From positions 24,001 through 88,000 of the forward strand of contig NZ_JACXWX010000010.1 in NCBI RefSeq assembly GCF_014764505.1: a stretch of 64,000 bases of DNA, given 5' to 3'. The first letter of the stretch is position 1; every line of letters starts with the position of its first letter. A program made the translations under genes and the position numbers. Positions 3,982-47,320 of the stretch are shown one piece after another. This DNA comes from Phormidium tenue FACHB-886 (lineage in GTDB: Bacteria; Cyanobacteriota; Cyanobacteriia; Elainellales; Elainellaceae). A model generated the notes under the pieces. The model saw only the letters and a list, made by a program, of their open reading frames with translations. It did not search any database and had not been told where the DNA came from.

Positions 3982-6564
3982 TTAGTCTTCTTGTGGTGAG
4001 TAGAGCGATCGCACTTCTGCGGCTGTGTTGCAGGCGATTGCTCTGGCAGCTAGCTCTCGACACTGCGCCAAGCTGAGTTCACGCACCTGCGCCTTAACAC
4101 TGGGAATAGTGGGAACGCTGACGCTGAGCTCCTTCACGCCCAAGCCGATCAGCAGCGGCACGGCATGTGGATCGCTGGCAATGCCGCCGCAAACTCCCGT
4201 CCATTTGCCCTGTTGATTGGCTGCCGCTGCCGCCATCCCAATCAGCTTCAGCACAGCCGGATTCAAGCCATCGCAGAAGGGCGCGAGTTTCGGATGTCCC
4301 CGATCCATTGCCAAGGTGTATTGGGTCAAGTCGTTCGTGCCGACCGAGAAGAAATCTACCTCTTTGGCAAACTGCTCCGCCATGACGGCAGTCGCCGGAA
4401 TCTCGACCATAATTCCCACTCCAACGGGCGCAACACCTAGCTTCTGGCGTTCCTCTTCCACAACCGCTTTCGCAAGGCGAAATTCCTCCAGCGTGGCAAT
4501 CATCGGAAACATAATCTTGACGTTGCCAAACGTGGATGCCTTGAGAATGGCCCGGACTTGCGTTCGCAAAATCTCCGGGCGATCGAGCCCAATCCGAATG
4601 CCGCGTTCTCCCAAAAATGGATTCTCTTCATGGGGCATCGGCAGATAAGGCAAGGGCTTATCGCCGCCCACGTCCAGCGTCCGAATAATCAGCGGACGAT
4701 CGCCCATCGCCTTAGCAATGTCCGTGTAAATCTGCGCCTGCTCTGCCTCAGACGGTGCATCTGCCCGATCGAGAAAGATAAACTCCGATCGCAATAGCCC
4801 CACACCTTCTGTGCCCAGCTCGATCGCCTTTTGCGCCTCTGCAAGGCTGCCAATATTCGCCACAATCTCCATCGCCTGCCCATCTGTCGTTACAGCAGGC
4901 TGATGCGTAACACTGAGTTCTCGTTCCCGTCTTGCCTTCAGCCGAACTTGCCGCTGCCGCACCTGCTCCATTTCCGTCGGGTCAGGATTAACGCGCAGTG
5001 CGCCTTTGCTGCCATCTAAAATCACTGGGGTTCCATTGGGTAAGTCCAGCACACGGGGTTCAGTGCCAGCGATCGCGGGCAGATCCATTGCTCGTGCCAA
5101 AATCGACACATGCGAAGTGGCGCCGCCGCCCACGGTACAAAAGCCCAGCACTCGCCCCCGATCCATCGTTGCCGTATCAGAAGGCGACAAATCTTCTGCC
5201 ACCAGAATGGCATTCGGCGGATACTCGATCGCCTCCGCCACGGTACCCGTAAGAACTCGCAGCACCCGACCGCCCACATCCCGCAGATCGTTTGCTCTTG
5301 CCGCCAGCAGTTCGTTTTTAAGCTGTGCTAGCTGCTCTGCCTGCCCGGTATAAGCCTGCTTCCAAGCAAACGCTGCACTTTTGCCTCTGTCAATCGCGCT
5401 GATTGCCGCATCAAACAGCTCCGGGTCTTCCAGTAGCTCCTGATGCGCTGCAAAAATTGCCGCCTTACCCGCATCTGCCTGTCCCTGCACTTTGGCTCTT
5501 AGAGCCTCTATTTCTAGCCGCGCTTGGGCGATCGCCTTTTCCAACTGCTGCCGCTCTTGGCTAGGATTTTGCGCCGTTTCTGCCACGCTAATGTCCTGAT
5601 GGGCGATCCGATACACATTGCCCACTGCCACACCCGGAGATGCCGCCACACCCAAAATCAGATTCGGATCAGTTGAGCGGGGACGCGGTGCCGGAGCCGC
5701 CACTTCCGATACGGCAACGCTCGCTGGAGCCGCAATCGGCTTTGAGCCTGCTTCCCCCAATCCCGACCGAATCGCTTCCGTCAGTTCAGCAATCGCTGCG
5801 TTAGCATCTTCACCCGTGGCAGTCAGATAAACTGTACTTCCCCGCTCCACCTGCAGGCTCATCACGCTCACCACACTCCGGACATTTGCCTGCTTGTCGC
5901 CCAGCTTGATCCGAATGTCTGATTGATATTTTTTAGCTAAATTTGCCAGCACCGCCGCCGGACGAGCGTGCAGCCCCGTAGGATTGGGAATGGCGATCGC
6001 CTCTGAAGTCACGGCTCGGGCAACCGAGCCACCGTTCGCTTGAACTGTATTGACTGACTGTCCGCCCACTGGCTGTGCACCCGCCAGCCTCAGCTCCAGC
6101 GCCACATCCTGCCCTGCTATCACATCTCCTGTCTGTGGTGCAAACTGCCCCACCACCTCGCCATTCGTAATTACAATCTGCGTTAACAGACTGCGGGCGT
6201 GAGTGGCAACATAATCTGCATCAAACTCGATCAGCGGATCGCCCGCCCGGACGCGATCGCCCACCCGCACCTGCGCCTCAAACCCTTCACCGCGCAGCAT
6301 GACGGTATCTAGCCCAATGTGAATCAGCACTTCCACGCCTTCTGGTGATCGAACCGTCACGGCATGGCGAGACGGATGCAGCTGAATGACCTCTCCATCG
6401 CAAGGAGCCACCAGCGTTTGGCTGATTGGGTCAATTGATACGCCATCCCCCACCATTTTCTCGGCAAACACCGGATCGGGCACATTCTCAATATTGACTA
6501 GCCGTCCCGATAGGGGGGCAACCAGCGCAAGACTCGCTTTTGCTGGCGTAGCAATGTACGTCAT
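3982..6564 (-). CDS. PTS multiphosphoryl transfer protein (EIIA-Glc / HPr / enzyme I fusion)
   Basis: This cytoplasmic protein carries the whole soluble phosphorelay from PEP to the sugar permease. Residues 8-160 are an EIIA of the glucose (Crr) type with His67 and the phospho-accepting His82 in VLIHIGLDTV. Residues 187-268 are HPr with His199 in PTGLHARPA. From about 302 to the end is enzyme I, with the phospho-His485 in GGATSHVSILARAMD and the PEP-binding barrel motifs GLLRSEF, LDVGGDKP, MVEIPA and TGVCGGIASD. It resembles NagF-type fusions by domain order, but the partner is PtsG-like. At 860 residues all active histidines are present, so it should work. It is the first gene of the two-gene PTS operon; no linked regulator is visible. 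Confidence 0.95.
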   Translation of the reverse strand: MTYIATPAKASLALVAPLSGRLVNIENVPDPVFAEKMVGDGVSIDPISQTLVAPCDGEVIQLHPSRHAVTVRSPEGVEVLIHIGLDTVMLRGEGFEAQVRVGDRVRAGDPLIEFDADYVATHARSLLTQIVITNGEVVGQFAPQTGDVIAGQDVALELRLAGAQPVGGQSVNTVQANGGSVARAVTSEAIAIPNPTGLHARPAAVLANLAKKYQSDIRIKLGDKQANVRSVVSVMSLQVERGSTVYLTATGEDANAAIAELTEAIRSGLGEAGSKPIAAPASVAVSEVAAPAPRPRSTDPNLILGVAASPGVAVGNVYRIAHQDISVAETAQNPSQERQQLEKAIAQARLEIEALRAKVQGQADAGKAAIFAAHQELLEDPELFDAAISAIDRGKSAAFAWKQAYTGQAEQLAQLKNELLAARANDLRDVGGRVLRVLTGTVAEAIEYPPNAILVAEDLSPSDTATMDRGRVLGFCTVGGGATSHVSILARAMDLPAIAGTEPRVLDLPNGTPVILDGSKGALRVNPDPTEMEQVRQRQVRLKARRERELSVTHQPAVTTDGQAMEIVANIGSLAEAQKAIELGTEGVGLLRSEFIFLDRADAPSEAEQAQIYTDIAKAMGDRPLIIRTLDVGGDKPLPYLPMPHEENPFLGERGIRIGLDRPEILRTQVRAILKASTFGNVKIMFPMIATLEEFRLAKAVVEEERQKLGVAPVGVGIMVEIPATAVMAEQFAKEVDFFSVGTNDLTQYTLAMDRGHPKLAPFCDGLNPAVLKLIGMAAAAANQQGKWTGVCGGIASDPHAVPLLIGLGVKELSVSVPTIPSVKAQVRELSLAQCRELAARAIACNTAAEVRSLYSPQED

Positions 6565-6760
6565 GATGGTCTCCTGATTTTTCTTTTAGATCAATTCTTA
6601 AAATGAGCAGTCATGTAGCTTGCAAAAAACACTGCATCTCTTTAACTTTTTCATTTGCGTTTTAACGGCAAAACAACGTTCCTCAATTCATCTCCTTCTT
6701 CGCAAAAATTTATTAAAATTTATGTAGCGCCATTTGTTCAATTGCTGAATTTTTTCTGAT

Positions 6761-7045
6761 ATGCCGCTGTGTCAACTTTGCGATCGCAACTTGCCTACCC
6801 TCACTGAACACCACTTGATTCCACGCCAGAAAACCAAACGCAAGCACCTCAAGCCCAGTCCCACGATTAGCATTTGCTCTGCCTGCCATCGTCAAATTCA
6901 CACGTTGCATGACAACACACATCTAGCTAAAGAACTAAACTCGCTAGAAGCCCTCAAAGTCGATCCACAATTGCAAAGATTTATTGCCTGGGTCAAAAAG
7001 CAAGACCCACACAAAAAAGTCCAAGTTCGCTCCAAAAATTACTAA
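6761..7045 (+). CDS. Small HNH-like zinc protein
   Basis: The 94-residue protein has a CxxC pair at residues 4-7, an EHHLIPR motif at 16-22, and a second CxxCHRQIH motif near residue 40. This is the pattern of small HNH-type (His-Me finger) proteins with a structural zinc; such proteins are usually annotated as HNH endonucleases. The rest is basic and contains the SLEALK and FIAWVKK helices common to the cyanobacterial members. It diverges from the PTS operon and has no clear partner. Nuclease activity is inferred from the motif only. Confidence 0.8.
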   Translation: MPLCQLCDRNLPTLTEHHLIPRQKTKRKHLKPSPTISICSACHRQIHTLHDNTHLAKELNSLEALKVDPQLQRFIAWVKKQDPHKKVQVRSKNY

Positions 7046-7278
7046 GTTAGACGGCCCCAAACTGAAAAAGCCAATATTGTTTCAGCGGCAGCGAACCTTA
7101 AGCACCGATATCTACAGGGTTGCCGAACGCAAGACTTCAGACAGGCTGACAGCTTGCTGAACCACCGACTCAAGCGCCAGAAATTCGGATTGGCTACGCG
7201 ACGGGCGATTGGTGATAGGAACCCGTCACAGTGTGGATTCCCCAGTCGTTTTTCGGTGTGGCTAAAGACTGCAACAAG

Positions 7279-7812
7279 CTAAGCCAACCGCAGGCTATTG
7301 CACTTCTGCAAAAATGAATTGCCCTTGCTTGCCGCATCCGGATTTTGCAGATGGGCAGGCGTGTGGCGCACAACCCCCTCAAACAAATCCGTCAAGCCGT
7401 AGGGTGTGAAAAACTGCCAATTCCCCTGCCGATCGACCCGCACCCCCACCGCTGTTGCCGTGTGCAGCCAATCGGATACGCCATCTTCCACACTGCTGTA
7501 GGGGCACCGACCCGCACGCCAGCGGGCAAAGCTAGCTTGATTCTTCACATCAAACTTGTAAGCTGGAAACTGCTGCGTTAGCCTATCTTTCGCCGCTAGC
7601 TCTTGCTCTCGCCCCCCAGCGGCATCAAAAAACGCCACATCAAAATCGTTGATCACTAGCCCACAGTTGCTAAACAGCGATCGCCAAACTGTATTCCGCA
7701 CTGCGCCACCCGCCAACCACCAATCCGGCAGGCTGAGCTGAGCGATCGCAGGCAGTACTTCCCCCACCGGCGAAGCCGCCAAAATCTGTTTGAGCTGCTC
7801 AGTCCGCTCCAT
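7279..7812 (-). CDS. Nucleotidyltransferase-family protein (COG3575 / NTP_transf_6 type)
   Basis: The 177-residue protein has the nucleotidyltransferase-fold motif GGAVRNTVW followed by the DxD element in NDFDVAFFD. It then carries RCPYSSVEDGVSDWLHTATAVGVR and TPYGLTDLFEGVVR, which match the COG3575 family of unknown-substrate nucleotidyltransferases. The C-terminus aligns without gaps to the usual family end, so it looks complete. The start codon lies inside the 3' end of the upstream histidine-kinase gene (14-base overlap), implying translational coupling. No substrate is known for the family. Confidence 0.8.
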   Translation of the reverse strand: MERTEQLKQILAASPVGEVLPAIAQLSLPDWWLAGGAVRNTVWRSLFSNCGLVINDFDVAFFDAAGGREQELAAKDRLTQQFPAYKFDVKNQASFARWRAGRCPYSSVEDGVSDWLHTATAVGVRVDRQGNWQFFTPYGLTDLFEGVVRHTPAHLQNPDAASKGNSFLQKCNSLRLA

Positions 7813-8962
7813 CTTTGCACTCCATCCCCAGCAGAGGCAAAGTCACCGTTACCGTTGTCCCCATCCCCTCTTGGCTATCGAACTGAATCTGTCCCTGATA
7901 AACCTCTACACAACGTTTGACGATCGCCAACCCCAAACCTGTCCCCCGGATTTCCCCTACATTGCTGCCCCGGTAGAACGCATCAAACAAATACGGCTGA
8001 CTCGCAAGCGGGATGCCAATGCCGCGATCGCAGATCTGAAACTGCACAGCGTCCTGATAGTTTCTTGGACTGGTCACTCGTAGCTCAACCAGCTCCCCGG
8101 CAGGAGAATACTTGATTGCATTCGTCAGCAGATTAATCAAAATTTGGCGCAACAGCGTTTGATCCACTTCAACCACCGTACACTCTGCCGCGTAGCTAAA
8201 CTGAATTTCGCAGGGTCGATCGACTTCCGTTTGCAGCAGCTCCACCACCTCCTGACAGAACTGCTGCAATGCCGTTGGCTGTCGCTGCAGTTGGCTGGTT
8301 TCAACACTGCCCAGCCGCAACACTTCATCCAGCAGATTCAAGAGATGGTCGATCGCCGTATCAATTTTATTGAAATAGCGTGCTTGAGTATCTGGCGGGT
8401 GTGGACTCATGCGCAGCAGCTCGGTGAAACCGCGAATGCTGGTCAGCGGCGTGCGAAAGTCATGGGAGATCATCGCCACAAATTCAGACCTGAGGCGATT
8501 CAGCTCCTGCTCCTGCTCTAGCGCTCTGAGTGCTTCGCCTTTGGCTCGCTCCAGTTCTAACTGCGCTCGTCGCAGCACAAGCTGATTTTCTACGCGCGCC
8601 AGCACTTCTTCCACCTGAAACGGCTTCGTAATGTAATCTGCTCCGCCTACCTGAAATGCTTTAACCTTATCGCTTGTCTCGCCCAACGCACTCAAGAAAA
8701 TAATCGGAATCGTCTTAGTCTTCTCATTCAACTTCAGCTGAGTGCAAACCTCATAGCCGTCCATTATCGGCATGTTAATATCCAACAGCACTAGATCAGG
8801 ATGAATTCGCTCTACTGCTCTCAGCGCCATTAAGCCACTAATTGCGCTCCGGACCCCATACCCGTGCTGGTGCAGCATGCTAGACAGCAGCCGTAGATTG
8901 CTGGGCGTGTCGTCCACAATTAGAATATTGCCTTTAGCTGACGGCTCCTCACTCATTAGCAT
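7799..8962 (-). CDS. Hybrid receiver-histidine kinase (REC-HisKA-HATPase)
   Basis: This is a cytoplasmic two-component sensor with no membrane segment. Residues 12-128 are a receiver domain with acidic Asp17/Asp18, phospho-acceptor Asp61 (LLDINMP) and Lys113. A coiled coil (about 130-160) leads to the HisKA H-box with His167 in MISHDFRTPL. The HATPase domain follows with N, G1 (DRGIGIP) and G2 (GTGLGLAIVKR) boxes. The architecture is the cyanobacterial type in which an N-terminal receiver controls the kinase. It sits 14 bases downstream of the HisKA-EAL gene and overlaps the nucleotidyltransferase gene, forming one three-gene transcription unit. Confidence 0.92.
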   Translation of the reverse strand: MLMSEEPSAKGNILIVDDTPSNLRLLSSMLHQHGYGVRSAISGLMALRAVERIHPDLVLLDINMPIMDGYEVCTQLKLNEKTKTIPIIFLSALGETSDKVKAFQVGGADYITKPFQVEEVLARVENQLVLRRAQLELERAKGEALRALEQEQELNRLRSEFVAMISHDFRTPLTSIRGFTELLRMSPHPPDTQARYFNKIDTAIDHLLNLLDEVLRLGSVETSQLQRQPTALQQFCQEVVELLQTEVDRPCEIQFSYAAECTVVEVDQTLLRQILINLLTNAIKYSPAGELVELRVTSPRNYQDAVQFQICDRGIGIPLASQPYLFDAFYRGSNVGEIRGTGLGLAIVKRCVEVYQGQIQFDSQEGMGTTVTVTLPLLGMECKDGAD

Positions 8963-37324: not shown

Positions 37325-37356
37325 GAGTTCCAAGCCGCACAACTTGGAACTCTTTT
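37325..37356 (+). terminator. Intrinsic terminator of dnaA
   Basis: A perfect 10-bp stem GAGTTCCAAG/CTTGGAACTC (37325-37334 / 37343-37352) with an 8-base loop is followed by TTTT. It lies about 95 bases after the stop codon. Confidence 0.85.
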
Positions 37357-37420: not shown

Positions 37421-38413
37421 CTACTGCTGGAGCTGTTTAGAGAAAAGAGCATAGCGCCGCATGGGTGTAGCATAGTGGCGACTGAGGTTGCGAGACTTAT
37501 TTTCTTCATGCATCAGAGCGTGAATAGCGCGACTGTAGCCGAGCTGATGCGCGATCGCCTGCACATTTTCCACCAGCACATTGCCCAACCCTGCATACTG
37601 TCGCTCCGGCAAAACCGCAACGGTTTTAATGATCGCTGTATCGATCGCTTCACCCCGTTTTGCTTGTTCTAGATTGGGAATCGCAAACAAAAAACCGACT
37701 CTTCGCTGTTGATGTTCAGCAACAAGGATCAAATTAGGGTCAATATAAGGCTTGATTTGACTGTATTGCGCTATAAATTCTGATTCGGCGATTGGCGTAT
37801 ATAGTAGATTCTGCCGAAAGCTAACCAGCGAAAGCTGATAGAGCTGCTGAAGTTCCAACTCAAATTGCTCTGGATCAAACGATCGAATCCTCACGCCCAG
37901 CTTGCTAAGACGCTGCGCGACTGGCTGAAGACGAGGATTGCGCTGCGTTAAATTGGTGACGAGCGCAGAACTATAGTGAGCGAACGGCGCAAAACCTGCC
38001 TCTACGAACTGCTGCGGATAGACGGCAGGATGGTTTGGCTCCAGGAAAAACAGCGGTTCTGTACCCCGATCGGTAATGAATCGGTAGCTCCGCCAAGTAT
38101 TGCCATCAATTGGCGCGATCACGAGGGTACAGCCTTGGGCAGCTAGCTGGTTGCAGGCAAATTGCAGCAGCCTTGGAGCAGCATCACTTTGGGCGGCGTA
38201 GTGACCGATGAAGCCGAGTTGATGATTGGGGTAGTGGGGGAGAGTGCGCCACCAGAGGGAGCAGTGAGCGACGATCGCTCCTTGTTCGATCAGAACGAGG
38301 TGACGATCGGGGGCTTGCTGCTGAAAGAGTTTGACATCCAATGGTGGCAACCCTTGTAACTGATCCAATGCAACCAGTTCAGCCGCCGTTTGGATTTGCA
38401 GACAGGTATACAT
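37421..38413 (-). CDS. GNAT-like acyltransferase protein, last gene of the lipid operon
   Basis: The 330-residue protein looks like two joined acyltransferase-like halves. The C-terminal half has the GNAT pattern of strands and the acyl-CoA loop (IIKTVAVLPERQYAGLGNVLVENVQ), and it ends MHEENKSRNLSRHYATPMRRYALF. The N-terminal half (to about 160) contains IAPIDGNTWRSYRFITD. Similar proteins are annotated as uncharacterised N-acetyltransferases. Its ATG directly abuts the TGA of the YjbQ gene, so the two are translationally linked. Whether it acts in the same pathway as the upstream genes or is merely co-transcribed is unknown. Confidence 0.78.
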   Translation of the reverse strand: MYTCLQIQTAAELVALDQLQGLPPLDVKLFQQQAPDRHLVLIEQGAIVAHCSLWWRTLPHYPNHQLGFIGHYAAQSDAAPRLLQFACNQLAAQGCTLVIAPIDGNTWRSYRFITDRGTEPLFFLEPNHPAVYPQQFVEAGFAPFAHYSSALVTNLTQRNPRLQPVAQRLSKLGVRIRSFDPEQFELELQQLYQLSLVSFRQNLLYTPIAESEFIAQYSQIKPYIDPNLILVAEHQQRRVGFLFAIPNLEQAKRGEAIDTAIIKTVAVLPERQYAGLGNVLVENVQAIAHQLGYSRAIHALMHEENKSRNLSRHYATPMRRYALFSKQLQQ

Positions 38414-38851
38414 TCATTCACCCGAAAGTTGACAAAATACTGTCCGCTTGCGAGCGCCGTCCAGCTCAAACAATAAGACAGATTGATAGGTGCCCAACGC
38501 AAGCTCACCGTTAGCGATCGGAATAACCTCGCTGGTGCTTAAGGTCATTGCCATCAGATGAGAATGGGCATTCATCGGTTCATCTGCTGGGATGTTCTCT
38601 CGTAGATGCAAGTCATTGTGTAGATAGTTATCACCCTGGGGTGCAAGCTTTCGCAAATAAGCCTTTGTATCTTCCAAGAGTCTAGGCTCATATTCATTGA
38701 TAGCCAGGGCTGTGGTCGTGTGACGTGAGAAGACTAGCACCTGCCCATTCTGAATAGCGCTCGCTGCAAGTAGATCTTTGAGCTGGGGTGTAATGTTGTA
38801 AATGCCGATGCCAGGATCGGTTTCCAGTTCGATCGTGTGATTTGAAAACAT
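38414..38851 (-). CDS. YjbQ/UPF0047 family protein
   Basis: I take ATG 38849-38851, which gives the normal family length of 145 residues; the longer open frame upstream only overlaps the 3' end of the next gene. The family signatures are complete: VFSRHTTTALAINEYEP, the HNDLHLREN metal-binding region, NAHSHLMAM and the C-terminal ALGTYQSVLLFELDG. YjbQ-type proteins have weak thiamine-phosphate-synthase activity in vitro but no settled function. It lies 14 bases after the kinase gene and directly abuts the GNAT-like gene, so it is inside the six-gene operon. Confidence 0.92.
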   Translation of the reverse strand: MFSNHTIELETDPGIGIYNITPQLKDLLAASAIQNGQVLVFSRHTTTALAINEYEPRLLEDTKAYLRKLAPQGDNYLHNDLHLRENIPADEPMNAHSHLMAMTLSTSEVIPIANGELALGTYQSVLLFELDGARKRTVFCQLSGE

Positions 38852-38865
38852 TGTAAAAGTAGACC

Positions 38866-40272
38866 CTAAAAACTTACTGTAAGCGGAATCAATGCCAGAA
38901 GAGATGCCAGCGCAGTATAGACAATGCGACAAGTCCAAGCCAATGTATCGATGGGCAACCGCCTCAGGGTAGGCTGACTGAGGTAATAGGCAACCGCACT
39001 CAAGGCCGTACCCAGCAGCCCGATTAGCGCCACATCGATCGTTTCTGCCGATAGCCCAACCATGCCCAGCAGCGGCAAAAACAAAAATAGCCACCCCTTG
39101 AGGATATGGCTAACCAGCAGCATGAGGTGTGCTCGCCCCCAATACCGAACGGGTGACAGTCCTGCCACCCCAACGATCGCTAAATTTGCTGCAAACGCCA
39201 GCGTGTAAGGATAGAGAAAAGCAGGGCGATCGAGGGCGCTAAATAGCATTAACCAGAGTAAACCCGGTGCACAAACGCTCAACACAGAATGAATCGTATG
39301 AATCCGCTGCCACTGTCGAGGGCGCTCTGAAGCAGCAGGCAGCCAGCGCATGATTTTCTGTTCTTGCGGCGTCAGAGGTGTTTTCTGCGGATCAATCCAA
39401 GGGACAAATACCGGATACGTAATCAGCAGCGTGAGTGGGGCTAAGAGCCATTGCCAGCCGCCCAATGTCCAACTGAAATAACCAACGACAGCAGCGCCCA
39501 GCAGCGCGCTATCGTTCAGCGTCGTTCGCTTTCGCCAGCTCAACACCAGCAGCACCAGCGCCACCGTCATGATCAGCCGCAGCAGTAGCTCTGTCACGCT
39601 CATGCTGAGATGAGATCGCAGCAGCACAAAGCTTCCCAGTGGGATAAACAAGTTATCTAAACCGCGCCAAGCGATCGCCTCCAGCAGCATCACCAGCAGA
39701 CCCAAGATCAGAGAGATCAACAGCGTTTCAATTCGTCCAGTCTGGCTCAGCAGCAGGAGAGGCACATGAACACTGAAAAAAGCAGCGACAAAGAATGCAA
39801 GCGAGCCTTCAGCGCTCTTAAAACCTTCTGAAGTCGTGTAACGAACTTGACCATAGCGGATTCCAATAATTGCTGCGATCGCATCCGCCAAGGTGAGAAT
39901 CAGAATTGGAATGCTAAAGAGTAACGGATTGCCCTCAGAAAAAATAAATAGCAGCGCTACTGCCACCGGAAAATAAACCTCACCGAGCGATCGCCGCTCT
40001 ACTCCACCCAAAACGCTGCCAAACTGGTTACGGACGGGTGAATAGAGGCGGATGGTCAGCAGCGTAGCGATTGCCAGCCCCGCCAGCACTAAGACAGGTT
40101 GAGGAGATTCGAATAGCCACGGAAAGGTGAGCGTTAGCAGCCCCATCGGCACATGCAGCAGCTTCCGCACCACTTCAGGATGAGGAGAGAACCGCCGCTG
40201 GTAAAACCGCAGCCCGATCAGCAGTCCGCCCAGCACCACTAACACTCCACTCACTGCCATCCAGGCGTTCAT
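38866..40272 (-). CDS. Phytol/dolichol-kinase-type membrane protein with a DUF92-like C-terminal half
   Basis: This is a 468-residue polytopic membrane protein. The N-terminal half (about 1-225) has the CTP-dependent polyprenol/phytol kinase signatures: RKLLHVPMG (36-44), SLGEVYFPVAVALLF, and the nucleotide motif LADAIAAIIGIRYG...GFKSAEGSLAFF (128-161). The C-terminal half adds about eight hydrophobic segments, starting with NDSALLGAAVVGYFSWTLGGW, which resembles the DUF92 family. Such enzymes phosphorylate phytol, farnesol or dolichol. Fused halves are less usual. It lies five bases after the DUF3419 gene; the prenyl-alcohol theme fits the UbiA protein of the same operon. The exact substrate is unknown. 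Confidence 0.82.
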   Translation of the reverse strand: MNAWMAVSGVLVVLGGLLIGLRFYQRRFSPHPEVVRKLLHVPMGLLTLTFPWLFESPQPVLVLAGLAIATLLTIRLYSPVRNQFGSVLGGVERRSLGEVYFPVAVALLFIFSEGNPLLFSIPILILTLADAIAAIIGIRYGQVRYTTSEGFKSAEGSLAFFVAAFFSVHVPLLLLSQTGRIETLLISLILGLLVMLLEAIAWRGLDNLFIPLGSFVLLRSHLSMSVTELLLRLIMTVALVLLVLSWRKRTTLNDSALLGAAVVGYFSWTLGGWQWLLAPLTLLITYPVFVPWIDPQKTPLTPQEQKIMRWLPAASERPRQWQRIHTIHSVLSVCAPGLLWLMLFSALDRPAFLYPYTLAFAANLAIVGVAGLSPVRYWGRAHLMLLVSHILKGWLFLFLPLLGMVGLSAETIDVALIGLLGTALSAVAYYLSQPTLRRLPIDTLAWTCRIVYTALASLLALIPLTVSF

Positions 40273-40277
40273 AAGCT

Positions 40278-41372
40278 TCAGAGGATTTCTTCTAAAATGA
40301 AAGCGCTGTAAAAGAAGGCTTTGTCTTGAGCATGGAGCATTTGTGCTAACTCGGATAGGGGCTGGAGCTGATGCGCCATTTCGGGGGGGCGCGATCGCTG
40401 CACCAACATATTCCAGTACGCCAACCGTCCACCCTTACGTCCGGCTTTGATTAACTGCTGCAGGAGAGCGTGATAGCGATCGGGTGAAAGATACTCAAAA
40501 ATATCGCTGAGATTGTAGCGATCGATAGCATTCTCTCCGGCTTGCGCCAAATAATCTTCGATTGAGGTATGATGCCATTCCAGCCGATCTAGATTATTGC
40601 GGATCGCCTCAAAGTTCTCTGGACGGAGAGCATAAGGTAGCGCAGCAGTATACTCTCCGGTAAGAATCCATTGTAGATAGGGGTTTTCGGCGGGATTAAG
40701 CTGCGTCAAGGCAAACTCAGTTCGGCTAAGGATGCGATCGGCTACACTACCCTGAACATACTTAAAGAAGCTCGGATCGCGTCCGGCTCGTCCCATCACG
40801 ACGCGAGAAAAGAAAATCCGAAACAGTAAACGCCACCGCCATGTATCCCAGCATTGGTCATAGAACGTTTCGCGCTGCGCGGCCGTGCCGCCCTTGAGCA
40901 ACTGATTGACTAGGGTGCGATCGTGAATCAGCGGCAGAATGCGCCTTCTGAATAGGGCGAAGTATCGCTCAAATTTGCCAGCTCCACCAATACCCCGATC
41001 GACTTCAACGCTGTTGAGATCCCAAAAATAGCGTGCTTCTGCAGAAAGCTGGCTGCGGCAACGCTGATAGAGCGGCTGTCGCTCGCCTGGTTTTGCGCCA
41101 ATTAAGATTAAGAGTTCTGAGTGGTTCAGTTCACGATAGGCGGCAACTCGTAGCTCTAAGCAGGCAAGCTGAGCAGCGCTTAAATCTATGGCGATGACTC
41201 GCTCCGGGTTCTGGCTCAGTAAAGCGAGCGTATTGTCTCCTGCCGATGCGATGGATAGACAAGTATCACCAGGTTGAATAGCGAGCGCCTTGAGCAGGAT
41301 ATCTGTATCCTCCCAGCATTGGGCATAACGAATATATGAAAACTTAGCGTGATTGCTCACTTCACTGGACAT
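40278..41372 (-). CDS. DUF3419 protein, BtaA-like SAM:3-amino-3-carboxypropyl transferase
   Basis: The 364-residue soluble protein matches DUF3419, the family of BtaA, which moves the aminocarboxypropyl group of SAM onto diacylglycerol in betaine-lipid synthesis. The start QCWEDTDILLKALAIQPGD, the SAM-binding glycine loop SIASAGDN (40-47) and the acidic VIAIDLSAAQLACLELR are clear. The C-terminal SDIFEYLSPDRYHALL and GGRLAYWNMLV fit the Rossmann core. It overlaps the dikinase gene by 16 bases, indicating coupled translation. No BtaB-like N-methyltransferase is present, so the product is not simply a betaine lipid. Confidence 0.88.
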   Translation of the reverse strand: MSSEVSNHAKFSYIRYAQCWEDTDILLKALAIQPGDTCLSIASAGDNTLALLSQNPERVIAIDLSAAQLACLELRVAAYRELNHSELLILIGAKPGERQPLYQRCRSQLSAEARYFWDLNSVEVDRGIGGAGKFERYFALFRRRILPLIHDRTLVNQLLKGGTAAQRETFYDQCWDTWRWRLLFRIFFSRVVMGRAGRDPSFFKYVQGSVADRILSRTEFALTQLNPAENPYLQWILTGEYTAALPYALRPENFEAIRNNLDRLEWHHTSIEDYLAQAGENAIDRYNLSDIFEYLSPDRYHALLQQLIKAGRKGGRLAYWNMLVQRSRPPEMAHQLQPLSELAQMLHAQDKAFFYSAFILEEIL

Positions 41373-43951
41373 GAGAAATTCTCTACTTGCGATACGCTGC
41401 TTTCAATTCGTTGAATTGAACCCGTGCTACCGTTCATTTCCACCCAATCGCCATCCTTGAGCAATCGCGTGATGCCCGAAATCGAAACAATTGCCGGAAT
41501 GCTCATCTCACGGGCAACGATCGCCGCATGGGAAAGGACGCTGCCTCGCTCCACCAGCAGCCCAGCTGCAGCCGGGAACAGCAAAATCCAACCCGGATCA
41601 GTTCGTTCTGCCACAAGGATGTGACCGGGCTGAATCTGGACAGTGTGTGGGTTGGTGACGATCTGCACCGGGGCACGAACTACACCCGGACAGCAGCCTG
41701 TTCCTTGCAGGTGGGCGGGTGATCCTGCAACAGAGAAAGAAAGGATGGGAGAGAGCGGGTGAACAGCGCCGCGCGTAGAGAAGCGATCGTGGGGAGCAGA
41801 CATGGCACTGTAGCGCCGAAATTCGGCTCGTCGAATATTAATCAGCCCTGGCAAATCGGTGCAGGTCGTTGTACCTTCCACAAACCCGAGGACTTCATCT
41901 AGATTCAAATAGAAGATGTCTTTAGGATGTCCAAGTATATCGAGTGCATAAAAGCGTTTGCCAAGCTCTACCATGATCCGGCGAACGCGACCGAAAACCC
42001 GAGTGCGCTCAAACCGCAGATTCTCACGATCGCGCACTCTAGCTCTAGCATTTTGCAGCACCCAGTTGAAAATAGATTGCTTAACCGGATTGGCTTTGAG
42101 TGCATCTTTCACTTTCGCTTCAGCTTCAGAGCGGCAGGTAGAAGGTTGACCAGATTGGAGACAGTCCTGCCGCTGTGCCAATTGTCCAATCGATCGCAGC
42201 AGCAGCAGTGGATTGTCCTGAAGCGTTTCGCTTTCTAGCTTTAGCTCCTCGAGGCAGCGATCGCCAAATTTCTCCAGGTAGGCGTCGTACTGAATTTGGA
42301 AGGCTAGAAATCTGGGAATTTCCCGCAGAATTTCTGGCAAGGAGCCATGACAGAGAAGCTGCACAAAGCAGGTATCACGGGCGATGGTGGCTGCCATCTG
42401 GCGGATTCGCTGGGCCGGTTCAGCGCTGATGATGCCACCTTCGCCGCTGATCAGATCGTTCTGCAAAGTGCCATTGCCGTCATCGCACCACCGTGCCGTT
42501 AGCTTCCGCAACACCCCATAAAAAATCATGGCAAAAAAATCATTGACCAGCGGCGCATCCCAGTGCGTTAACAGCTGCCGTTCAAGCTGGCGGTAGTGGG
42601 CAACCAGCTCATCCGGACGCAAGCTTGTCAGCAGTATTTCTGAGGAGGCACTAGCAGATCGATCTGCCAAAGCGGCATTAAGCCGTTGATAAAAGCGATG
42701 AATTTGGCGCGGTAAGGTAACATAGTTCTTCAGCAGCCCGACGATCGCGCTGGCAAGCCGCAGGCTGTCCTGCACTTTGGCGCTTAGACTGGCTTGCTCG
42801 ATGGTACGCAGCACCTCGATCGGCAGATCTTCCCGAACACCCATCATCTGTTCCATAAAGCGGCGGTTGACGGTAAATCCGGGCAGCAGTGCCAGCACTC
42901 GATACCAGTTGAGCAAGTTATAGTAAATCCGTCCCTGTACTAAGCCCAACATGCAGCGGAACGTTGCATCCTGACGATCGATCACAGCTTCAGAAACTCC
43001 CATCAGTCGGCAAAACTGACGATATACCGCTTCATACGCCTGTTGAGCGAAGGAGAAGGTGAGCGGGGTAGTTACGCCGCCATAGCTTTCAGCGATATTG
43101 CTGTTATCCCAAATCTGTAGCACGCCGTCTGGATCAGATAGATTTTTTAGGGTTGTAATTGGTCGTGCTTGTAGTAGGTAAAGATTTTCTGCTTCAATTG
43201 CCCATTCAATATCTTGTGGTCGCCCTAACTGCTGCTCGACTCGGCGAGCCAGCGTAGCAACTGCTCGGATCTCCTCATCTGTGAGAATTGCCGCTTGCGC
43301 TTCATCTCCCCGAGAAATTTCGCCATTTCGATCGACCTCCCACGTTCTCCCCTCCTGCGCTCCAGACACCAGCGCTTCGCCCAGACCACACACCGCCGAA
43401 ACCACAGCAGTCCCCCGCTGACCTGTGACCGGATTAGCGCTAAAAGCAACCCCTGCCGCCTCTGGCTGAACCATTTTTTGGATCAGTACAGCAGGCGGAC
43501 TGGGCAACTGCATCAGCTGATGGTCTTGGCGGTAAGCAAGCAGCCGATCGGCAAACCCCGATCGCCAAACGGCAACCACTTTTTGTGCCACATCTGAAAT
43601 TGCCACATTTAGAAAACTATCGAGCTGTCCTGCAAAGGAGTGCCGAACGCCATCTTCTTCCAGAGCAGACGATCGAACTGCAACAAGTTCCCCTTGAGGG
43701 CAAAGGTGCATCAAAGCTTGGGAGAGCTGAAACAGCACCAATGCGCTGGGCTGAACGTCTGTCAAGCTGTATTCGCCTGCTGCAATCTGCTGGCGTTGGA
43801 GGTCTGTCAGGCTGTTGTCAAAGGCAGCAGGAGACAAAACGAACCAGTCGGGCACTGGCATGGAGGAAGCCAGCTGAGCCAGAATGCTGGCCTTTCCACC
43901 GAATTGAGAGGCGGAATTACTGAAGTCTTTCGCGTAAAAAATATAGTTCAT
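41357..43951 (-). CDS. PEP-synthase-related dikinase with rifampin-phosphotransferase-like architecture
   Basis: The 864-residue protein has an ATP-grasp (PPDK_N) N-terminus (about 1-270) with AVRSSALEEDG, QKMVQPEAAGVAFSANPVTGQ and EWAIEAENLYLLQARPI. A long helical middle (about 290-745) follows. The C-terminal swivelling domain carries the phospho-His808 in GSVLSHAAIVAREMSIPAI. The PEP-binding TIM barrel of PEP synthase and PPDK is missing. This is the plan and length of rifampin phosphotransferase, which uses ATP to phosphorylate a hydroxyl group of a bound small molecule. I infer that it phosphorylates an intermediate of this operon. The start overlaps the UbiA gene by four bases (ATGA). 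Confidence 0.88.
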   Translation of the reverse strand: MNYIFYAKDFSNSASQFGGKASILAQLASSMPVPDWFVLSPAAFDNSLTDLQRQQIAAGEYSLTDVQPSALVLFQLSQALMHLCPQGELVAVRSSALEEDGVRHSFAGQLDSFLNVAISDVAQKVVAVWRSGFADRLLAYRQDHQLMQLPSPPAVLIQKMVQPEAAGVAFSANPVTGQRGTAVVSAVCGLGEALVSGAQEGRTWEVDRNGEISRGDEAQAAILTDEEIRAVATLARRVEQQLGRPQDIEWAIEAENLYLLQARPITTLKNLSDPDGVLQIWDNSNIAESYGGVTTPLTFSFAQQAYEAVYRQFCRLMGVSEAVIDRQDATFRCMLGLVQGRIYYNLLNWYRVLALLPGFTVNRRFMEQMMGVREDLPIEVLRTIEQASLSAKVQDSLRLASAIVGLLKNYVTLPRQIHRFYQRLNAALADRSASASSEILLTSLRPDELVAHYRQLERQLLTHWDAPLVNDFFAMIFYGVLRKLTARWCDDGNGTLQNDLISGEGGIISAEPAQRIRQMAATIARDTCFVQLLCHGSLPEILREIPRFLAFQIQYDAYLEKFGDRCLEELKLESETLQDNPLLLLRSIGQLAQRQDCLQSGQPSTCRSEAEAKVKDALKANPVKQSIFNWVLQNARARVRDRENLRFERTRVFGRVRRIMVELGKRFYALDILGHPKDIFYLNLDEVLGFVEGTTTCTDLPGLINIRRAEFRRYSAMSAPHDRFSTRGAVHPLSPILSFSVAGSPAHLQGTGCCPGVVRAPVQIVTNPHTVQIQPGHILVAERTDPGWILLFPAAAGLLVERGSVLSHAAIVAREMSIPAIVSISGITRLLKDGDWVEMNGSTGSIQRIESSVSQVENFSCPVK

Positions 43952-44859
43952 TGAATAAAGAGAGGAGCGATACCTAATGTTGGATAAACTAGCAAAATCC
44001 AGAGAGCAGACATAAACTCAAACGCTCTCGCCTGAGTAGAAGTGGATTTAACTAAGAACTGCCAGATTACCAAGACTGAACCCACTAAGAGAGCCAAAAG
44101 CATTAACGCAATTGGCACATTAAACTGAATCGATCGAGCTGAAAGAAGAGTTGTCAATCCCATCAGCCCCACTACACTCAACCAAACGATCGCAGCACGT
44201 CGCCGTCCCCAAAGCGCCGAATAGGTTTCAACACCAAACTCTTCATCCTTAGGAGCGCGAATTTTTCGACCCAGTTCGATCGCCAAGCTGGTAAAAAAGC
44301 TAACTCCCATAAACCAGCCGAGGCTCATTGAAGGAGCCTCCTGAGCAACTAACCAATCCCAAGCGGTTGCATAAAGTGCCATCAGTGGCAGAATTACTGC
44401 ATGACTCAGCATGTAAACCAAGGGATGTGCCTTGAGCCATCTGCTCACAAAGAACTCTTGGCTCATCAGCCCCAAATAGCCCCAAACTAGCAGCAACAGC
44501 AACACCATTGGGCTACCGATCGCGCTAGCAAATCCCAATTGAACGATGCCGCCTGCCACTCCCAAAACTCCCAGTTCGCGCAGGCTAACTAACCCACGCG
44601 GCACCGGGCGATAGGGACGATAAGTTGCATCATCCTGATAGTCTTTGAACTCGTCTGTAATCCTTAACTGTAGAAAGAATAGGAATAGCGTGAAGAAGGC
44701 AACTAAAATGGCAGGGAGAACCTCAGAGAGGCGTATGGTTGCGCCACGCAGCCGTAGCGAGTAGCACACTGCAGAACTGCTAAATACTAGGATGAGTATG
44801 CTGTTTTGAACAACTGGGAAGCGCTCTTCTTGATAGCTCCACCAACGCTTTAGGTTCAT
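43948..44859 (-). CDS. UbiA-family prenyltransferase
   Basis: This 303-residue inner-membrane protein has about eight or nine hydrophobic segments and both Asp-rich prenyl-diphosphate motifs of the UbiA family. The first is RITDEFKDYQDD (66-77, variant of NDxxDxxxD) followed by YRPYRPVPRGLVSL, and the second ELGRKIRAPKDEE lies near residue 205. Such enzymes attach prenyl chains to aromatic or other acceptors. It heads the six-gene operon. It is more diverged than chlorophyll synthase or the tocopherol and plastoquinone prenyltransferases I can recall, so its acceptor is not assigned. Confidence 0.9.
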   Translation of the reverse strand: MNLKRWWSYQEERFPVVQNSILILVFSSSAVCYSLRLRGATIRLSEVLPAILVAFFTLFLFFLQLRITDEFKDYQDDATYRPYRPVPRGLVSLRELGVLGVAGGIVQLGFASAIGSPMVLLLLLVWGYLGLMSQEFFVSRWLKAHPLVYMLSHAVILPLMALYATAWDWLVAQEAPSMSLGWFMGVSFFTSLAIELGRKIRAPKDEEFGVETYSALWGRRRAAIVWLSVVGLMGLTTLLSARSIQFNVPIALMLLALLVGSVLVIWQFLVKSTSTQARAFEFMSALWILLVYPTLGIAPLFIQ

Positions 44860-45027: not shown

Positions 45028-45059
45028 AAAAAAACTCCCCGCTGCAGCACAGCGAGGAG
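45028..45059 (-). terminator. Intrinsic terminator of phoX
   Basis: On the minus strand CTCCTCGCTG pairs with CAGCGGGGAG (one mismatch) around a 5-base loop and is followed by seven Ts. It lies 29 bases past the phoX stop codon. Confidence 0.88.
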
Positions 45060-45088
45060 CGATAAGGTTAGGACTTGAGAACTGACTG

Positions 45089-47320
45089 CTAGCTGAGGCT
45101 GCCACCATCCAGTCGGTGGACTGCAATCACGCTAGATTTGGCAGGAGCGTTGGCTTCCTTGCTGGGCCAGTTAGAGCCGATCGGCACTTCCCGAGTTTGG
45201 GTAAATTCTTGACCATCAATTGTCTTCAGCACATACTTGCGGCTTACAGATTCCATATTCTGCCGAATACCACCGTACTCGCCTGGATGCTGCGCTGCCA
45301 AGAACAGCGTCTTCTGGTCGGGCGTAATTAGCGGACCCGTCATTTCAGCATCCATTGGACCAAAGCCAAATAGGAAAGCTTGTCCAGCGTTATCTCCAGA
45401 GGTGGGGATATACCACACCGAATTGTTGCCAAAAATGCCGCGTAGATTGGATTGGCTGACAGGTTTACCTTCATCATCTATGCGGCTGGCGATCTCCTTG
45501 TTGTGCTTATCCGTTGACATATCCGTCACCATCCAGAGATTGCCCTTGCCGTCAATCTCCAGGTTGTCTGGGTTGGCAAAGCCCAAGCCGCCGTCAGCCG
45601 GTTCGCCACCGATGGATAACATGGACCACTTAAAGGTCATTGCGGCCGGGTCGTTGTTGTCTTCCTCCAGCTTGGTGATCCAGCCGTATTCATAGGGTGT
45701 TTGTTCTTTTGGACCTTTGAACACGCGGGCATCTGGTCCGCCGTCCCCGCTGCTAGGTGAGCCAGAGGTGAAGGTGATAAACAGAGTGCCATCCGGACGA
45801 ACATCGGTATCTTCGGGGCGCGCTGTGCAAGTCGCTCCGGCAGCGCTAGCAGCAAGGTGGGCATCAATCAGAATTGCGCCCTGCTTTTCTTCAGCATTGC
45901 CGACATATAAGTCATTTAAGGTCTTGAACTGCTGCTTGTAAGGGGCGATCGCCGCATCTTCTTCAAATTTGGCTCCACCGCCTGCCGTGCGATCGGGGTT
46001 GGGCAGGTAGATCAACTTGCCTTCGTGGACGCTCGGCAAATCAGGATTAATAGCGGTGTTTGGCTCCAGCGCGATCCAGCTGCCTGTGCCGTCAGCATTA
46101 AATTTGGCGGCATACAGCATCCCATTGCTGAGCAGCTGCGAGTTGGCTTTATCTTTGGGGTCGCGCACAGCTCCAGCGCTGACAAACTTATAGACATGTC
46201 CGCCCCGCCGATCGCAGCCCGAATAAAACGCCAGCGGTTTGCCCGCAACCGCCCGAACGCCGACTGCCTCATGGCGATAGCGCCCCAGCCAAGTGTGCTT
46301 GGTACCGTTGTCATTTGGGTTTGCCGGATCGACTTCCACAACCCAGCCGTATTTGTTGCCTTGTAGCCCCCAAGCGCTGGCAAATCCGCCGCCTTCCTCA
46401 AGTGCGCCTTCTTCAGTGCTCCATACAAAGGGAGTTTCACTGGGCTGCATCGAGGTGCCGTCTGCATAAACCGCTTCGGGCACTTGCTCCTGAAAGTTCT
46501 CTTCGGCGCTGAGGCTGGTTCCCCAAGGTGTAGTGCCGCCAGAGCAATTCTGCGCTGTGCCAACAATTTTTTCACCCAGCGTATCAATGTAGCCTTGTCC
46601 GCTGGTTTTTTTGAACACAGCAACGGCTGGACCTGTTGAGTTCAGGTACTTGCTATCTTCCAATCCGGCAATTCCTGAGATACGACGATCGGCGCTGGAG
46701 TTGGTGCGCTCCCAGCTGCCATCTGGATTGCGACGCACCGAAATGATCGACAGCCCCATGTCATAGAGCGCTGCCTTAGAGATCGCTTTGATGTCTTCTT
46801 TGAGCGGGTCACCATCGGCTAGCGCATAAGTATCGATCTCACCGTCTTCTGCCTGCTGTGCAGCAGCTCTAACCGTTGCAAACGGCAGCTCTTTGCCCAC
46901 GACCTGCTGATAGCCCTGCGACCACGGCTTTAGGCTGACATATTCGTGGTTCACCATCAAAAAGCCTTCACCGGGCTTGACTTCAACGTAGGAGATGTGA
47001 TCGCAATTTGTGCCAAAGTGATCGGCTTCGCCCAGGCGATCGCCCCAAGCCGCAATAACGTTGTAGGTATAGCCTTCTGGCAGCACAACATCATCTACTA
47101 CCGCGAAGGAGCTGTACTCGCTGATTTGCTTGGCCTGATCCAAACCATCCGTCGTTAACGGCATGGTTCCTTGAACAGGTTTGAACGGTAGCCCTGTGGG
47201 AACAGCCGCCCTTGCAGAATTGGGCTGCAGGCTACCATTAGAATTGATCAGAGGCTGTAGGGCGATCGATCCCGCACCAGCGCCCATGAACAGTAAAAAC
47301 TCTCTGCGCTTCAAGCTCAT
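45089..47320 (-). CDS. phoX: PhoX-family (DUF839) alkaline phosphatase, Tat-exported
   Basis: The 743-residue protein begins with a twin-arginine signal (LKRREFLLFMGAGAGSIAL) and a cleavage-like NSARAA. The rest matches the PhoX/DUF839 phosphatases, which use Ca and Fe and release phosphate from organic esters outside the cell. Visible family segments are GTNCDHISYVE, EGFLMVNHEYVS, CSGGTTPWGTSLSAEENFQE, YGWVVEVDPANP, GRYRHEAVGV, YSGCDRRGGHVYKFVS and PDNLEIDGKGNLWMVTD. A Pho-box-like triple repeat lies 115 bases upstream, which fits induction by phosphate shortage. The gene is monocistronic. Confidence 0.92.
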   Translation of the reverse strand: MSLKRREFLLFMGAGAGSIALQPLINSNGSLQPNSARAAVPTGLPFKPVQGTMPLTTDGLDQAKQISEYSSFAVVDDVVLPEGYTYNVIAAWGDRLGEADHFGTNCDHISYVEVKPGEGFLMVNHEYVSLKPWSQGYQQVVGKELPFATVRAAAQQAEDGEIDTYALADGDPLKEDIKAISKAALYDMGLSIISVRRNPDGSWERTNSSADRRISGIAGLEDSKYLNSTGPAVAVFKKTSGQGYIDTLGEKIVGTAQNCSGGTTPWGTSLSAEENFQEQVPEAVYADGTSMQPSETPFVWSTEEGALEEGGGFASAWGLQGNKYGWVVEVDPANPNDNGTKHTWLGRYRHEAVGVRAVAGKPLAFYSGCDRRGGHVYKFVSAGAVRDPKDKANSQLLSNGMLYAAKFNADGTGSWIALEPNTAINPDLPSVHEGKLIYLPNPDRTAGGGAKFEEDAAIAPYKQQFKTLNDLYVGNAEEKQGAILIDAHLAASAAGATCTARPEDTDVRPDGTLFITFTSGSPSSGDGGPDARVFKGPKEQTPYEYGWITKLEEDNNDPAAMTFKWSMLSIGGEPADGGLGFANPDNLEIDGKGNLWMVTDMSTDKHNKEIASRIDDEGKPVSQSNLRGIFGNNSVWYIPTSGDNAGQAFLFGFGPMDAEMTGPLITPDQKTLFLAAQHPGEYGGIRQNMESVSRKYVLKTIDGQEFTQTREVPIGSNWPSKEANAPAKSSVIAVHRLDGGSLS

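Follow-up and report, generated by a model that had tools for sequence, protein, structure and literature searches.

The window, that is, the whole stretch of 64,000 nucleotides of Phormidium tenue FACHB-886 analyzed here, carries on its minus strand six abutting or overlapping genes between positions 37421 and 44859. These genes and the two hairpins that bracket them are listed from upstream to downstream.

45034..45060, minus strand: terminator-like hairpin after phoX, at the upstream border of the operon (12 pairs, then a T-run)
43948..44859, minus strand: UbiA-superfamily integral membrane transferase, of a distinct subfamily (PF01040, 52 bits; motifs; predicted structure)
41357..43951, minus strand: RPH/PigC-like dikinase (PF01326, PPDK_N, and PF00391, PEP-utilizers, only)
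40278..41372, minus strand: DUF3419 protein, a BtaA-like SAM aminocarboxypropyl transferase by predicted activity (PF11899, 250 bits)
38866..40272, minus strand: putative CTP-dependent lipid-alcohol kinase of the VTE5/dolichol-kinase type (invariant motifs, VTE5-like similarity, fusion with UbiA in locus L125)
38414..38851, minus strand: YjbQ/UPF0047 protein (TIGR00149, 101 bits)
37421..38413, minus strand: tandem GNAT acyltransferase (PF00583, predicted structure, conserved neighbour)
37325..37352, no strand assigned: hairpin between dnaA and the 3' end of the operon, close to the latter (10 pairs, with a T-run on the plus strand)

We re-checked the coordinates and junctions, and they agree exactly with the first-pass annotation, which had counted six minus-strand genes with overlaps of 4 and 16 bases, gaps of 5 and 14 bases and one abutment. 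The UbiA and dikinase genes overlap by 4 bp (ATGA, 43948-43951) and the dikinase and DUF3419 genes by 16 bp (41357-41372). A gap of 5 bp (40273-40277) separates the DUF3419 gene from the kinase gene, which is followed 14 bp further by the YjbQ gene, provided that the latter starts at the ATG at 38851 and not at the longer mechanical start at 39094; the YjbQ and GNAT genes abut (38414/38413). The next gene upstream on the minus strand is phoX (45089-47320), which encodes a PF05787 alkaline phosphatase and is followed by a terminator-like hairpin of its own. It is a unit separate from the operon and is absent among the conserved neighbours of DUF3419 loci. A search of the window yielded no RNA element at Rfam gathering scores.

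The membership of the first protein in the UbiA family is supported both by its Pfam match, above the cut-off, and by its predicted structure (pLDDT 96), which has the UbiA fold (Z 20 to the A. pernix UbiA homologue and 19 to the archaeal digeranylgeranylglyceryl-phosphate (DGGGP) synthase). Profile comparison places it nearest to the archaeal DGGGP synthase, its best PDB match (E 1.4e-4), and to chlorophyll synthase. It differs from the archaeal enzyme in its metal site: of the two Asp-rich motifs usual in the family (NDxxDxxxD and DxxxD), the first is altered to ADExKDxxxD and the second gives way to an Arg-Lys motif, ExxRK...E. The resulting signatures, RxxDExKDxxxD and ExxRK...E...TYS, do not vary in 42 relatives and persist in every variant of the cluster; the protein belongs to a distinct subfamily. 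Since one Asp-rich motif is altered and the other replaced, the usual mode of prenyl diphosphate use may not apply to this enzyme. The first-pass annotation had considered a role in chlorophyll or quinone synthesis as a possible objection; this is probably not the enzyme concerned, since the genome holds seven UbiA genes, of which the operon copy is the most divergent. A parallel with the phosphoribosyltransferase Rv3806c was rejected, the match being one of fold (Z 17) with none by sequence.

The dikinase consists of an ATP-binding domain, a central region and a C-terminal phospho-histidine domain. Lys20, Arg93, Glu249, Gln261 and Arg263 do not vary among 62 sequences, nor does His808 in the 61 long enough to include it; the catalytic residues are intact. 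Rifampin phosphotransferase (RPH) and PigC dikinases have the same two terminal domains with intact catalytic residues and likewise lack the pyruvate-binding barrel, but the operon protein falls far under their curated cut-offs (260 of 999 bits for RPH, 266 of 1300 for PigC). It does not qualify as a PEP synthase either, for want of the C-terminal barrel and with only 206 of the 740 bits set for TIGR01418.

The DUF3419 protein retains the SAM-site core of its family and would be expected to transfer the aminocarboxypropyl group of SAM. Sixty residues are invariant in 66 cluster members, and 27 of these are common to a Rhizobium DUF3419 protein whose gene adjoins a methyltransferase gene. In the BtaA/BtaB pathway of Rhodobacter and Rhizobium, the transferase has the same WED / GxGxN / D core, but identity between the cluster proteins and the rhizobial ones is only about 25-28%; no solved relative was found by sequence. 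In another cyanobacterial context (loci L023, L024 and L029), DUF3419 stands in a row of four genes, preceded by those for a fatty-acid desaturase and a haem-oxygenase-like iron enzyme and followed by a gene with weak GNAT similarity.

In Pfam, nothing scores above the cut-off for the kinase gene. Its N-terminal half shares about 33% identity with VTE5-like phytol kinases (cyanobacterial proteins), and the motifs RK..H, D...A..G...G, K..EGS and G.DN...P, conserved in VTE5-type kinases, are invariant in 37 relatives. Unlike VTE5, the protein carries an extra C-terminal membrane half, which is not VTE6/DUF92 by profile comparison. A VTE5-VTE6 fusion was indeed rejected: the DUF92 match is weak (E 0.038; 0.002 for the best of 37 members), and the C-terminal half compared with cyanobacterial DUF92 profiles gave a probability of 0.1%; what aligned were motifs of the N-terminal kinase half alone. 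The predicted structure of the last protein (pLDDT 96) matches tandem GNATs (MAB_4324, Z 21; mycothiol synthase, Z 19).

To place the operon among bacteria, we collected 80 related loci from GTDB representative genomes with the DUF3419 profile as bait; the constancy of DUF3419 among them is by construction. Their phyla, taken from record titles and about 15 in total, are Cyanobacteriota, Deinococcota, Planctomycetota, Verrucomicrobiota, Pseudomonadota, Chloroflexota, Gemmatimonadota, Latescibacterota, Bacteroidota/Rhodothermota, Acidobacteriota, Krumholzibacteriota, Bacillota, Desulfobacterota, Armatimonadota and Eremiobacterota, and the gene set is thus not a cyanobacterial speciality. Many of the loci come from MAGs, others from isolates (Brevibacillus, Methylomonas, Calothrix, Desulfobulbus). 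Methylomonas sp. SURF-1 and Calothrix sp. PCC 7103 are among the culturable bearers of the cluster, and Cyanobacteria bacterium FACHB-471 (L064) carries all seven genes. The 43 well-flanked loci reach at least 6.5 kb to the upstream side and at least 5 kb to the downstream side; in them, UbiA was found 42 times, the dikinase 42, GNAT 39, an AMP-ligase 38, the kinase 34 and an HMG-CoA-reductase-like (HMGR-like) enzyme 31. The order HMGR-UbiA-dikinase-DUF3419-kinase-GNAT-ligase is exact in 20 of the 43 and rotated in 7 more, with median intergenic gaps between 1 and -4 bases. With this order repeated in dozens of unrelated genomes, the operon is far beyond chance. All seven genes lie together on a plasmid of Roseinatronobacter sp. 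S2, where HMGR is split only by the start point of the record.

Within a sample of 194 Cyanobacteriota genomes, the UbiA subfamily and the dikinase (counted above 400 bits) are confined to exactly the same 19 genomes and are neighbours in 17 of them; the other two, G008 and G050, have them on separate contigs, and in G008 both genes sit at contig ends. All 19 have a GNAT match, some weak, and 18 a DUF3419 match, 15 of these strong. Only three genomes of the window's class carry the set, which is therefore patchy. An apparent UbiA-dikinase fusion in two genomes (G041 and G021) was rejected, the long open frames being out of frame with UbiA. In another genome (G035), one contig (locus L187) bears an HMGR-like gene of the cluster type together with a distant dikinase (348-2681, 5438-7951), with no detectable UbiA of the cluster subfamily.

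For the seven families, pairwise divergences correlate with one another (r from 0.38 to 0.86, all exceeding the values of 100 label permutations), most highly for UbiA-ligase, GNAT-ligase, UbiA-dikinase and dikinase-ligase, a pattern that common descent of the whole locus would also produce. A kinase-UbiA fusion in L125 and a ligase-UbiA fusion in L162 link the enzymes directly and argue for a single pathway. Altogether, these data show that the HMGR-like enzyme, UbiA, the dikinase, DUF3419, the VTE5-type kinase, the tandem GNAT and the OleC-like ligase form one conserved gene set. The first-pass annotation had proposed a dedicated biosynthetic operon, to be checked through the neighbourhoods of UbiA, dikinase, DUF3419 and kinase in other genomes; these four do travel together, and the recurrence of the set across many bacteria supports the proposal. 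Its six-gene unit has to be redrawn: the four genes stay, GNAT is a core gene, the OleC-like ligase and the HMGR-like enzyme belong to the set, and YjbQ does not. With no homologue in any of the 80 loci, YjbQ was rejected as a pathway enzyme and is a local passenger inside the operon.

Two core genes lie outside the window or are missing. The orthologue of the AMP-ligase (59%) is unlinked, on contig 187 of the same genome, where comparison of its neighbours with the cluster families, in search of a reductase, revealed no homologue. OleC is the closest named function of the cluster ligases, and a further likeness is that no AMP-binding_C domain was found in them, but they reach 240-247 bits against the curated cut-offs of 850-900 for OleC olefin beta-lactone synthetases. 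A search of the window's nearly complete draft genome gave no HMGR-like gene, whereas relatives have one, and we thus regard the cluster of the window as an HMGR-less version. Such versions also occur in some genomes of about 2 Mb from the same phylum, outside the window's class.

The HMGR-like enzyme matches PF00368 with 381 bits and stays below the TIGR00533 cut-off. We checked its residues in 45 cluster sequences, using the human numbering. The four catalytic residues of class I HMG-CoA reductases (Glu559, Lys691, Asp767, His866) are invariant in all 45, but the residues for recognition of the HMG carboxylate are not kept: Ser684 is replaced by Glu in 45 of 45, and Lys735, which pairs with the HMG carboxylate in a salt bridge (PMC9500038), has given way in every sequence to Met, Val, Ala, Ile or Phe. 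Among 12 genomes with the HMGR-like gene, none has an HMG-CoA synthase above the cut-off and 11 have DXR, of the MEP pathway; the enzyme is therefore probably not making mevalonate. Together with the changes at Lys735 and Ser684, this leads us to conclude that it would reduce an acyl-CoA other than HMG-CoA, and the change of charge would suit an amine-bearing one.

Several clusters depart from the common form. Two Calothrix-type loci without HMGR (L105 and L107) contain an adenylation-carrier-thioester-reductase protein. Four Verrucomicrobiota versions (L075, L078, L097 and L101) lack the kinase and HMGR and have a second, distant dikinase; L075 adds an aminotransferase fused to a putative reductase, and L078 a SnoaL-like protein. 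A DAGK/YegS kinase is found near two kinase-less clusters, and genes for MMPL exporters, AurF and P450 stand beside several clusters. L160 keeps HMGR, UbiA, dikinase, GNAT and ligase with neither DUF3419 nor the kinase nearby, the only DUF3419 of its genome being remote. That such genes replace core enzymes is suggestive and relies on few loci. L155 (3329-13061) has a paralogous UbiA-dikinase-GNAT set whose neighbours, a PEP mutase, an iron alcohol dehydrogenase and a TPP enzyme, suggest a sister pathway linked to phosphonates.

From this gene content we infer a chemistry. The set probably encodes a dedicated lipid-type biosynthetic pathway, which would draw on SAM, fatty acids and perhaps prenyl chains. 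Our preferred reading, to which we give somewhat less than an even chance, sees in the operon the bulk of a pathway, spread widely by transfer, that makes an unusual amino-lipid, the homoserinol route described below included. DUF3419 would put the 3-amino-3-carboxypropyl group of SAM on the hydroxyl of a lipid alcohol, and the ligase would turn the new carboxyl into a CoA thioester. This thioester would be reduced to a primary alcohol by the HMGR-like enzyme or, in clusters that lack it, by some other thioester reductase. GNAT would then acylate the amine and the kinase phosphorylate the new alcohol. Finally, the UbiA-type enzyme would attach a second chain, prenyl or alkyl, the acceptor or donor having been phosphorylated by the dikinase. 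The product would be a homoserinol-based lipid resembling ceramide or phosphatidic acid. In the genome of the window, with its ligase elsewhere and its HMGR-like gene missing, the reduction would have to be performed by another enzyme or skipped.

The attraction of the route is that the aminocarboxypropyl group would provide an amine for GNAT, a carboxyl for the ligase and reductase and finally, from the reduced carboxyl, an alcohol for the kinase, that is, a natural step for all enzymes except UbiA and the dikinase, whose roles are the least certain. The alternative reductase in some HMGR-less clusters (L105 and L107) is suggestive in favour of this reading, as are the DAGK-type kinase genes near kinase-less clusters and the MMPL exporters; the weak GNAT-like gene after DUF3419 in an unrelated context also counts for it. 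The main weakness is L160, where HMGR and ligase persist with no DUF3419 nearby, and the lack of HMGR in the window's genome and some other clusters also speaks against the route. Taken step by step, the homoserinol route is a tentative and rather unlikely proposal. The first-pass annotation had expected a prenylated or homoserine-type lipid or a phosphorylated prenyl intermediate. A lipid with a SAM-derived homoserine-type moiety would be the most likely product, but the kinase cannot be assigned to a prenol, as the DAGK-type genes near the two kinase-less clusters point to a glyceride-like substrate.

On the other hand, one could assume a pathway for a prenyl- or alkyl-lipid, nearer to what the first-pass annotation had in mind, in which the ligase and HMGR-like enzyme would reduce an acid to a prenol or alkanol, the kinase would phosphorylate it with the dikinase, and UbiA would transfer it to an acceptor decorated by DUF3419 and GNAT as a head group. 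Both gene fusions, the kinship of the kinase with the VTE5 phytol kinase, the proximity of UbiA to DGGGP and chlorophyll synthases and the composition of L160 all agree with this alternative, which we consider rather unlikely. Every host already makes prenyl diphosphates, however, which would make an acid route roundabout; the UbiA-type enzyme has Arg-Lys where the second Asp motif is usually found, and the DAGK-type kinases indicate a glyceride-like alcohol.

Another possibility, which we consider improbable, is a secreted secondary metabolite, a signal or antibiotic-like prenylated amino acid, and not a membrane lipid. A patchy, plasmid-borne and multi-phylum distribution would fit such a compound, as would the PigE-like aminotransferase and second dikinase of the Verrucomicrobiota versions and the P450 and AurF neighbours, but what recurs is lipid kinases and MMPL exporters, and the conserved set includes no regulator, resistance gene or modular NRPS/PKS. 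Still more improbable is an ordinary betaine- or homoserine-lipid operon, in which DUF3419 would act on diacylglycerol like BtaA and the other genes would only supply or recycle diacylglycerol and phosphatidate: the SAM-site core common to the Rhizobium protein, the lipid kinases and the adjoining phoX are in line with it, as other bacteria turn to betaine lipids when starved of phosphate (PMC4796936), but phoX is a unit of its own, UbiA, dikinase, GNAT, ligase and HMGR would be left unexplained, and among the conserved neighbours in the 80 loci there is no methyltransferase family and hence no BtaB-type N-methyltransferase, whose absence the first-pass annotation had rightly pointed out.

Returning to the amino-lipid, its boldest form would be a new class of bacterial lipids built on a homoserine-derived amino-alcohol instead of glycerol or a sphingoid base, made by a horizontally transferred seven-gene cluster in about 15 phyla, with a relative of HMG-CoA reductase repurposed to reduce an amino-acyl-CoA; we regard this as an unlikely outcome, a shade more so than the route itself. 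To our knowledge, the gene set and its likely product match no known pathway, every enzyme coming from a known superfamily, and no paper on this gene combination was found in the open-licence PMC literature (family combinations, DUF3419, BtaA). Automatic annotation labels the set misleadingly as PEP synthase, HMG-CoA reductase and fatty-acid CoA ligase, hiding a distinct subfamily of UbiA and, apparently, an HMG-CoA-reductase branch put to a new use. A homoserinol lipid, if true, would be categorically new; for the present, we describe an operon of probable aminolipid-type biosynthesis. The cluster is carried by culturable hosts such as Methylomonas, Calothrix and Roseinatronobacter, and its tight conservation over many phyla implies that a real product has been overlooked or left unassigned in lipid surveys.
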